From: a bacterium
GTDB lineage: Bacteria > Desulfobacterota > Binatia > DP-6
Length of the DNA stretch: 64,000 bases
Assembly: GCA_026129405.1 (NCBI GenBank)
Contig: JAHCID010000001.1
Span: 1,023,237 to 1,087,236 of the forward strand
Direction: 5' to 3'
Positions 59,451 to 61,735 of the stretch are shown here, piece after piece. The stretch's first letter is position 1. Every line of letters starts with the position of its first letter. The position numbers were made by a program, and so were the translations under genes. A model generated the notes under the pieces. That model did no database searches. It saw nothing but the letters and a program-made list of their open reading frames with translations, and was not told the DNA's origin.

Positions 59451-60623
59451 ATGGACCTCGAGCTGAACGACACCGAGCGCATGCTGCGCGACACCTTCCG
59501 CGGCTGGTTCACGGGCGAGCTGGAGCCGCACGTGCCCGCCATGGAGCGCGGCGAGCTTTTGCCCTACGACCTCATGCGCACGATGCACCGCACGCTCGGC
59601 CTGGAGGCCATGGTGCCGCGGCCGGGCTCGCGCGAGCCGGGGGAGGGCGGCGCCGGGCTGGACGCCAACGTCGCCCGCTTCGCGCGCACCACCTTCGTGG
59701 TCGAGATGGCGCGCGTGAGCCCGTCGTTCGCGCTCAGCTACGGCGCCAGCACCGGCCTCTTCGGCGCCAACGTGATCGGCAAGGGCACGCCCGAGCAGGT
59801 CGCCGAATGGGCGATCCCGGTGATGCGCTGCGAGAAGATCGGCGCCTGGGGCCTCACCGAGCCCGGCGCCGGCAGCGACGCCCTCGGCGGCATGCAGACG
59901 ACCGCGCGGCGCGACGGCGACCACTACGTGCTGGCGGGCAGCAAGACGTTCATCACCAACGCCCCCTTCGCCGACGTCTTCCTCGTCTACGCGCGCGTGC
60001 AGGGCGGCGAGCAGGACGGCACGATCCAGCCCTTCCTCGTCGACCGCCGCGACGCCGGTCTCACCACCGGCCCGCCCATGAAGAAGATGGGCATGCGCGG
60101 CTCGCCCACCGGCGAGATCTTCCTCGACGACGTGCGCCTCCCGGCCGACCGCGTCCTCGGCGGCGGCGTGCGCAAGCGCGATCACGTGAAGTCGAGCCTG
60201 GCCCAGGAGCGCGGCGGCCTCTCGGTGCTGTCGTACGGCATCGCCGAGCGCTGCTTCGAGATCGCGCGCGACTACGCGAAGGAGCGGCGGCAGTTCGGCA
60301 AGCCCATCGCCGAGTTCCAGCTCGTGCAGCAGCGGCTCGCGCGTATGTGGGTGGCGGTGGCGAACAGCCGGCGCATCGTCTACGCCGACTGGCTCGCCGG
60401 CCGCCCGCTGCGCGAGTCCGTCGCCGACGTCTGCGCCGGCAAGCTCTACTGCGCCGAGATGGGGACGTTCGTCGCCTTCGAGGCGATCCACATCCTCGCC
60501 GGCAACGGCTACATGGAGGAGTACGTCGTCGAGCGCCTGGCGCGCGACGCCAAGCTCATCGAGCTGGGCGGGGGCACGACGGAGATCCAGATCCTGACCC
60601 TGGCCCGCGAGCTCCTGGCGTGA
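59451..60623 (+). CDS. Acyl-CoA dehydrogenase
   Basis: 390 residues. N-terminal helical domain ([16 protein letters not shown]), FAD-contact [20 protein letters not shown] and [16 protein letters not shown]-terminal [20 protein letters not shown] and [20 protein letters not shown]. Uses FAD to introduce a double bond into acyl-CoA. AAGGAG precedes the ATG. Its stop codon lies inside the first of two tandem hairpin units that separate it from the next gene. Confidence 0.95.
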
Positions 60624-60679
60624 GGTGATTACGAAATGATCGCCTCGACAGTGTGAGGTGATTTTGCAAGGATCGCCTC
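60622..60679 (+). promoter_or_regulatory. Two tandem GAGGTGATT-N7-GATCGCCTC units covering the whole intergenic gap
   Basis: Unit 1 is 60622-60646 (loop ACGAAAT), unit 2 is 60655-60679 (loop TTGCAAG). Arms are identical between units, loops differ. In DNA each is a 9-bp inverted repeat with two mismatches; in RNA both mismatches become G-U pairs, giving a complete 9-bp stem. Units start 33 bp apart (about three helical turns). Unit 1 overlaps the acyl-CoA dehydrogenase stop; unit 2 ends at the base before the next ATG and contains its AAGGA ribosome site (60668-60672). Confidence 0.75.
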
Positions 60680-61690
60680 ATGCCGCCTCCGTCTCCGACC
60701 GACCGCGTCCGTGACCTGACGGCCCGCCGGGGCGAGGTCCAGAACCGCGACGTGGCGGCGGCGCTGCGGGTGTCGGCCGCCACGGCGCACCGGCTCCTCC
60801 AGGCCCTCGTGCTCGCCGGCGTCCTCGAGCGGCGCGGCAAGGGGCGCGCGTCCCGCTACGGGCTGCGCACGATCCGGCGACGGTTCCGCCTGGCCGGTCT
60901 CGACGAGCACGCGGCGATCGACGCGATCGCCGCAGACATCGCGGCGATCCGCCCGCTGGGCGCCGACGAGGCGCACACCTTCGCGTACGCCGCCTCGGAG
61001 ATGCTGAACAACGCGATCGACCATTCGGGCGGCCGCGGCGCCGCGGTCACCGTCGCTTTCGAGGCCGGGGGCGCGACCGCGATGACGATAACCGACGACG
61101 GCGTCGGCGTCTTCCGCCGCGTCGCGGAGGAGTTCGGCTACGCCACCCCCGCGGACGCCATCGTCCAGCTCGAGCAGGGCAAGCTGACGAGCGACCCCGC
61201 GCGCCATAGCGGCGAAGGGCTGTTCTTCACCTCCAAGGCGGTGTCGCGCTTCCGGCTGGAGAGCCAGGGCGTGGCGTGGGTGGTCGACAACGTCGCGGGC
61301 GACAGCGGCATCGGCAGCAGCGAAGTGCGCCGCGGGACCCGCGTGGGCTTCGTGCTCGTCCCGGGGCACGTGCCGCGGCTCCAGGACGTCTTCGCGGCCT
61401 TCACCGATCCCGAGAGCCTGGCGTTCCTGCGTACGCGGGCGACGATCCGGCTGGCGGCCTTCGGCAAGACGCTCGTCGCCCGCTCCGAGGCGAAGCGCCT
61501 GGTCGCGCGGCTGCCCGAGTTCACCCACGTGACGCTCGACTTCACCGGCGTCGACGTCGTCGGCCAGGGCTTCTGCGACGAGGTCTTCCGGGTCTTCGCG
61601 CGTGCGCACCCCGGGGTGACGCTCGAGCCGGTGGGCATGAACGACGCCGTCGCCTTCATGGTGGCCCGCGCCCGCGCCGCGGCACGCTGA
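60680..61690 (+). CDS. HTH - HATPase - DUF4325 (STAS-like) regulator
   Basis: 336 residues. N-terminal winged HTH (VRDLTARRGEVQNRDVAAAL, AHRLLQALVLAGVLERRGKGRASRY), a GHKL-type HATPase domain with N-box SEMLNNAIDHSG (N110/N111) and G1 box ITDDGVGVF, then a C-terminal DUF4325 domain (TLDFTGVDVVGQGFCDEVFRVF). No histidine phosphoacceptor or HK dimerisation helices. The domain set resembles anti-sigma/anti-anti-sigma switches joined to a DNA-binding head. The tandem repeats directly in front of the gene are its probable target. Confidence 0.87.
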   Translation: MPPPSPTDRVRDLTARRGEVQNRDVAAALRVSAATAHRLLQALVLAGVLERRGKGRASRYGLRTIRRRFRLAGLDEHAAIDAIAADIAAIRPLGADEAHTFAYAASEMLNNAIDHSGGRGAAVTVAFEAGGATAMTITDDGVGVFRRVAEEFGYATPADAIVQLEQGKLTSDPARHSGEGLFFTSKAVSRFRLESQGVAWVVDNVAGDSGIGSSEVRRGTRVGFVLVPGHVPRLQDVFAAFTDPESLAFLRTRATIRLAAFGKTLVARSEAKRLVARLPEFTHVTLDFTGVDVVGQGFCDEVFRVFARAHPGVTLEPVGMNDAVAFMVARARAAAR

Positions 61691-61735
61691 CGGGCAGGGT
61701 GGCGCCGCCGGCGCGGCGCGGGCTACAAAGCCCGC

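Follow-up and report, generated by a model that had tools for sequence, protein, structure and literature searches.

Partner switches, in which a kinase is paired with a STAS antagonist, control sporulation, stress and, according to a 2026 report, immune operons, and in the described cases they consist of separate proteins that act in trans. In CapK/CapS, a system for the DNA-damage-activated control of immune operons (EMBO J 2026; PMC13373217), the kinase is SpoIIAB-like and the repressor is a STAS-wHTH protein, which acts on its own promoter via palindromes; in response to ssDNA signals, phosphorylation relieves this repression (PMC13373217).

The locus described here appears to belong to a family whose members combine the complete switch with a DNA-binding head in a single polypeptide, lack the classical serine and bring their own operators along. 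It is located in the window, i.e., the whole stretch of 64,000 nt that was analysed, where a gene at 60680..61690 (+ strand, like its predicted operators, promoter elements and domains below) encodes a 336-aa protein with a winged HTH (wHTH) head, a SpoIIAB-like GHKL domain and a DUF4325 STAS domain, and is a predicted autorepressor. The gene is preceded by a pair of repeats. As judged from sequence comparison, these repeats are probably tandem palindromic operators at which the encoded protein represses its own gene.

The encoded protein

The earlier note on this DNA had recognized a DNA-binding head, a GHKL ATPase and a STAS-like domain in the gene downstream of the repeats, and domain searches bore this out with matches to HTH_IclR (residues 13-52), HATPase_c_2 (78-193) and DUF4325 (271-324; E 1.7e-12). 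The wHTH head (60716..60835) matches HTH_IclR with an E-value of 7.6e-6 and wHTH repressors with a Z-score of about 10. Only the HTH matches the IclR family; no match to the IclR C-terminal effector domain was found. The GHKL ATPase domain covers about residues 62-229 (60863..61366). In an AlphaFold model built with 50 homologues as input (mean pLDDT 95), the best fold match of this middle domain was SpoIIAB (Z 14.8, with 129 residues aligned at 26% identity), followed by RsbW and UsfX. It shows the Bergerat fold with N, G1 and G2 boxes, and its motifs are an N-box with E107, N110, N111 and H115, DxGxG at 139-143 and HSGEGLFF at 176-183. These columns are nearly invariant: among 50 fused proteins, N110, N111, H115, D139, G141, G143, G178, E179 and G180 are present without exception, and E107 in 49.

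When the DUF4325 domain (residues 271-324; 61490..61651) was modelled alone, STAS domains topped the list of fold matches (RsbS with Z 7.5, RsfB, SpoIIAA and the STAS domain of SLC26), and the list consists nearly entirely of STAS domains, with middling Z-scores. The structures of CapS and VapS are absent from the fold-match lists, which has no bearing either way. Going by the models, the GHKL part is SpoIIAB-like, and DUF4325 has a predicted STAS fold. The phospho-acceptor position of this fold is occupied by Gly297, not Ser, and is Gly or Ala in 50 of 50 fused proteins, whilst most DUF4325 proteins of the class that stand alone have Ser there (PSF/SSF/FSF/VSF); the positions were equated from the alignment and from where the second helix begins rather than from a solved structure. 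The genome encodes only one DUF4325, and no STAS-serine substrate for the GHKL domain in trans was seen nearby. In the same class, open frames of about 120-170 aa encode small stand-alone DUF4325 proteins with a conserved TPSF[VI]DE motif (L134, L127, L128, L129, L135). Possibly, these are phosphorylatable antagonists.

The repeat pair and the predicted promoter

The repeats are 25-nt imperfect palindromes of the form GAGGTGATT-N7-GATCGCCTC, the predicted operator units 1 (60622..60646) and 2 (60655..60679), with a start-to-start distance of 33 bp. As described in the earlier note, they share the same arms and differ in their loops (ACGAAAT and TTGCAAG), and unit 2 contains AAGGA (60668-60672) and abuts the ATG at 60680, ending one base before it. 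Unit 1 overlaps by 2 nt with the TGA stop codon (60621-60623) of the upstream gene, which encodes an acyl-CoA dehydrogenase.

Protein searches in the window's class and in GTDB genomes yielded six close homologues from several phyla, with identities to the window protein of 74% (L019, Acidobacteria, and L004/L020), 72% (L021, Rokubacteria), 62% (L010/L022 and L005) and 61% (L011/L023). Together with the window protein, they form one clade in a protein tree (support 100/100). Both units are conserved in the six homologues, hence in seven of seven loci when the window is counted; they are 33 bp apart, or 32 bp in L021, whose unit 1 measures 24 nt. Unit 2 adjoins the ATG in six of the loci and is 3 nt off in L005. 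The 28 half-sites have the consensus GAGGYGATT, with Y split 14:14, and vary independently of each other. In the whole genome (5,632,691 bases), the strict pattern AGGYGATY-N7-RATCRCCT is found at two sites, which are the two units, and a reversed-pattern control gave no sites in the same 5.63 Mb. When up to three mismatches were allowed, the next best hits were one site with two mismatches, located over unrelated ORFs, and sites with three mismatches; these extra sites look like chance, and this search revealed no convincing second regulon target in the genome. Candidate sites for other targets in two further genomes of the class (L099, L101) adjoin unrelated ORFs and were rejected, as were viral matches to the pattern (L082, L083), the arrangement of which is unlike that in the window.

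A -35/-10 pair was scored in all 524 registers across the seven aligned loci. The best register reached 61 of 84 matches, as compared with 51 for the next one and a mean of 20.3 (sd 7.9). It has a 17-bp spacer and a -10 element that straddles the right arm of unit 2 and stops 6 nt short of the end of this unit. The -35 element is TCGACA in four loci and TCGATA, TCGCCA and TTGGGT in the remaining three; in the window, the -35-like TCGACA (60645..60650) is made up of the last 2 nt of unit 1 and 4 nt of the spacer. The -10 elements of the homologues are TATAAT, TACTAT (twice), TAGTAT, TAGAAT and CACAAT, and the window has AAGGAT (60668..60673; 3/6), 17 bp from the -35 element and 6 nt before the ATG. 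Thus, TANNNT is present in five of the seven clade members, the window and L011/L023 (CACAAT) being the exceptions. The window's own -10 is poor and its promoter weak by consensus, and a stand-alone consensus promoter scan called no promoter on the window copy. Leaderless bacterial genes have TANNNT some 12 bp ahead of the start (PMC3160421). The distance between -10 and ATG hints at a leaderless promoter here as well, with the transcript predicted to start at or beside the ATG.

Two uses of the repeats had been envisaged in the earlier note: binding of protein dimers to two DNA operators on one helical face, or translational control by an RNA-binding protein, with AAGGA as the ribosome site. 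The former is strongly supported by the sequence comparison, i.e., by the presence of both units in seven of seven loci, their fixed distance of 33/32 bp, their overlap with -35 and -10, and phased motifs elsewhere in the family. According to the latter, hairpins in the 5' leader would control translation while being bound by the protein itself or by another RNA-binding protein. All nine pairs per unit can indeed form in the window if G-U is counted, the two arm mismatches turning into G-U pairs in RNA as had been pointed out, and as RNA the 58 nt have a favourable folding score (z -5.4, the homologues ranging from -1.5 to -5.9), but such folding is expected of any pair of inverted operators. 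Over the seven loci, 97 of 126 within-unit pairs are Watson-Crick and 112 are paired when G-U is included, whereas re-dealing the right arms gave 98.7 and 112.7, respectively; with 88.9% of the cells paired vs. 89.6% in the shuffles, there is no excess of pairing or of covariation, at the modest power of seven loci. The innermost pair (columns 9/17) is unformed in 7 of 13 cells, and inner and outer pairings between the units showed no significant excess over permutation in these loci. Thus, the alignment of homologues proposed as a check confirmed that the repeats are present in them, but the arms do not covary and RNA pairing is therefore unsupported. Both arms follow one half-site, GAGGYGATT, and nothing among the seven loci, modest as their power is, favours pairing. 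Furthermore, the -10 lies within the putative hairpin and the predicted transcript starts at the ATG; hence, the hairpin would be outside the transcript. The role assigned to AAGGA does not hold up either: among the seven loci, it is seen in the window alone, where it occupies the -10 position. No fitting Rfam family was found for the repeat region. Control at the RNA level is, therefore, highly improbable. A sub-gathering match to mir-1181 inside the gene was taken as chance.

The wider family and its genomic setting

Upstream repeats were also sought in 54 members of the HTH-GHKL-DUF4325 family at large. In 34 of them, direct or inverted repeats within the 110 nt before the gene are significant; with control pieces from inside the genes, 9 of the 54 gave any direct match and 6 any inverted one. 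Upstream repeats are not significant by the same test in about a third of the members, some of which perhaps have misassigned starts. The motifs differ between subfamilies: besides GAGGYGATT, they are GTTGACAAT at 21/22 or 23/11 bp, TGTTCCAAT at 11/22/32, TATGGCGAA at 21/21, TAGTTATAA, and GTGTAGATT in inverted orientation. Across the family, the spacings (33; 21/22; 23/11; 11/22/32; 21/21) are in helical phase (R 0.92, p about 4e-5, n 12), with the proviso that they were grouped by hand and some were picked after seeing the data. When the five repeat groups tested are mapped onto the protein tree, four changes suffice, which is the minimum; the mean after shuffling is 14.8. In Chloroflexota members, a MerR/HTH_17-type head, matched by PF00376 in three members, replaces the IclR/MarR-type head, and the upstream palindrome is GTGTAGATT..AATCTACAC, located over TATAAT. 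Such a change of head and operator together, which like operator conservation, promoter register and the absence of another operator from the genome is visible in the sequences themselves, argues most strongly for binding of the repeats by the protein itself. The operators might alternatively serve a different, perhaps global, regulator of the gene, given that the link between protein and sites is drawn from sequence. However, the genome has the sites at no other gene, they accompany this gene from phylum to phylum, and each other subfamily pairs a different motif with a different head, which makes a foreign regulator highly improbable.

Individual loci illustrate the variation. The Chloroflexota loci L029 (upstream of 2794), L030 (upstream of 1561) and L025 (upstream of 1916) have a MerR/HTH_17-type head together with GTGTAGATT..AATCTACAC, which lies over TATAAT in L029 and L030; here, a head swap coincides with an operator swap. 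In the distant homologues L007, L012, L014, L049 and L053, three direct TTGACAAT-type repeats are found upstream at 21 and 22 bp. Each of them holds a TTGACA-like hexamer; thus, operator and -35 may coincide.

The six other genomes of the window's family all lack the gene, 15 of 148 genomes in the class have it, and other phyla contain near relatives. This patchy presence suggests that it spreads horizontally. No conserved partner gene was found: the 108 flanking proteins belong to 131 Pfam families, each with at most three members, and the gene that follows shares the strand 27 times and lies on the opposite one 23 times. No recurrent defence system was found among these 108 neighbours, scattered PADLOC matches being found in at most two cases each; PADLOC matches of the query itself were weak and confined to the HTH, and a defence link on this basis was rejected. 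Thus, the gene behaves as a solitary unit. As to carriage by phages or plasmids, the window protein gave no tblastn match, and the other members gave one weak match to a plasmid. Of 50 family members, 44 match PHROG 3364, a phage family with no assigned function, and no phage record was matched by tblastn. An empty-site comparison found no orthologous site; homologues of the upstream acyl-CoA dehydrogenase in the family stand at just 53-54%.

Since the gene is sporadic and appears to move, the repeats could be regarded as part of a mobile element, either as REP-like sites or as sites at which it recombines or transposes. Yet, they are located on the promoter in a fixed register with the start codon; the pattern is found nowhere else in the genome, so that the 3' side is unflanked; and no recombinase is conserved beside the family among the 108 neighbours. 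A role of the repeats in mobility is, consequently, very remote.

The next gene in the window encodes a thiolase. A perfect inverted repeat, GCGGGC-TACAAA-GCCCGC (61718-61735), ends one base before its ATG (61736). The TACAAA is -10-like and located 6 nt from the ATG, and the thiolase gene may also be leaderless.

The proposed switch and described systems

In the autorepressor model, two dimers of the wHTH-GHKL-STAS protein would bind the units about three helical turns apart and thereby cover the -35 and -10 of the putatively leaderless promoter, so that the protein would block its own production (negative autoregulation). That the encoded protein is the binder and that binding means repression is what we infer. 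Upon a signal, the acceptor-less STAS domain would read in cis which nucleotide state the SpoIIAB-like GHKL domain is in, and binding would be relieved or strengthened accordingly; we put forward such an effect of the nucleotide state on binding only tentatively. A protein that regulates nothing but its own gene offers the cell no obvious benefit. A more far-reaching proposal is that the family is a widespread one of stand-alone, horizontally spread one-gene switches, each a fused partner switch, made of a SpoIIAB-like ATPase and a STAS domain that cannot be phosphorylated, with its own operator array, in which nucleotide state alone sets DNA binding, the sole target is the own promoter and the output is the protein itself. 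In this general form, the proposal is unlikely to hold. The locus offers a simple, self-reporting system for asking how the nucleotide state of a GHKL domain becomes DNA binding, and a testable function for a DUF4325 architecture that the literature searched does not appear to describe.

With SpoIIAB/SpoIIAA and RsbW/RsbV, the window protein shares the GHKL fold (closest to SpoIIAB, as given above) and the STAS fold. In contrast to these partner switches, it is one chain with a DNA-binding head, lacks the acceptor serine in cis and has no known sigma factor partner. The wHTH head is shared with one-component repressors of the IclR and MarR/ArsR types, for which autoregulatory palindromes are ordinary; in contrast to the IclR type, the effector part here is a GHKL-STAS pair and not the IclR ligand-binding domain. 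The pairing of GHKL and STAS is also found in the VapKSC toxin-antitoxin system, which, however, consists of three genes with a PIN toxin, has a conserved Ser/Thr acceptor and has no described DNA operator role (PMC13373217).

Among papers on DUF4325 or the STAS-like domain, with subscription papers and preprints outside the search, none appears to describe the wHTH-GHKL-STAS architecture. Thus, the suggestion that this is an undescribed switch holds for the exact architecture within that literature, and CapK/CapS is the nearest system (PMC13373217). Both have a SpoIIAB-like GHKL domain, a STAS domain and a (w)HTH, and in both, palindromes are located over the regulator's own promoter, as far as sequence tells for the window. 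However, CapK/CapS is encoded by two adjacent genes, whereas the window has a single fused protein and no partner gene; the CapK kinase has the order HTH-STAS-GHKL instead of wHTH-GHKL-STAS; the phospho-acceptor Ser is absolutely conserved in CapK/CapS and replaced by Gly/Ala in the fused proteins; and an immune operon is located next door in place of the thiolase gene. CapK/CapS is, moreover, activated by ssDNA. Because of the first four differences, the window protein is not filed as a member of CapK/CapS, although by analogy it would work like a fused version of this nearest described system. The best reading of the repeats is, then, that they represent the conserved operator pair of a putative autorepressor, i.e., a new architecture that would exert a known kind of regulation.
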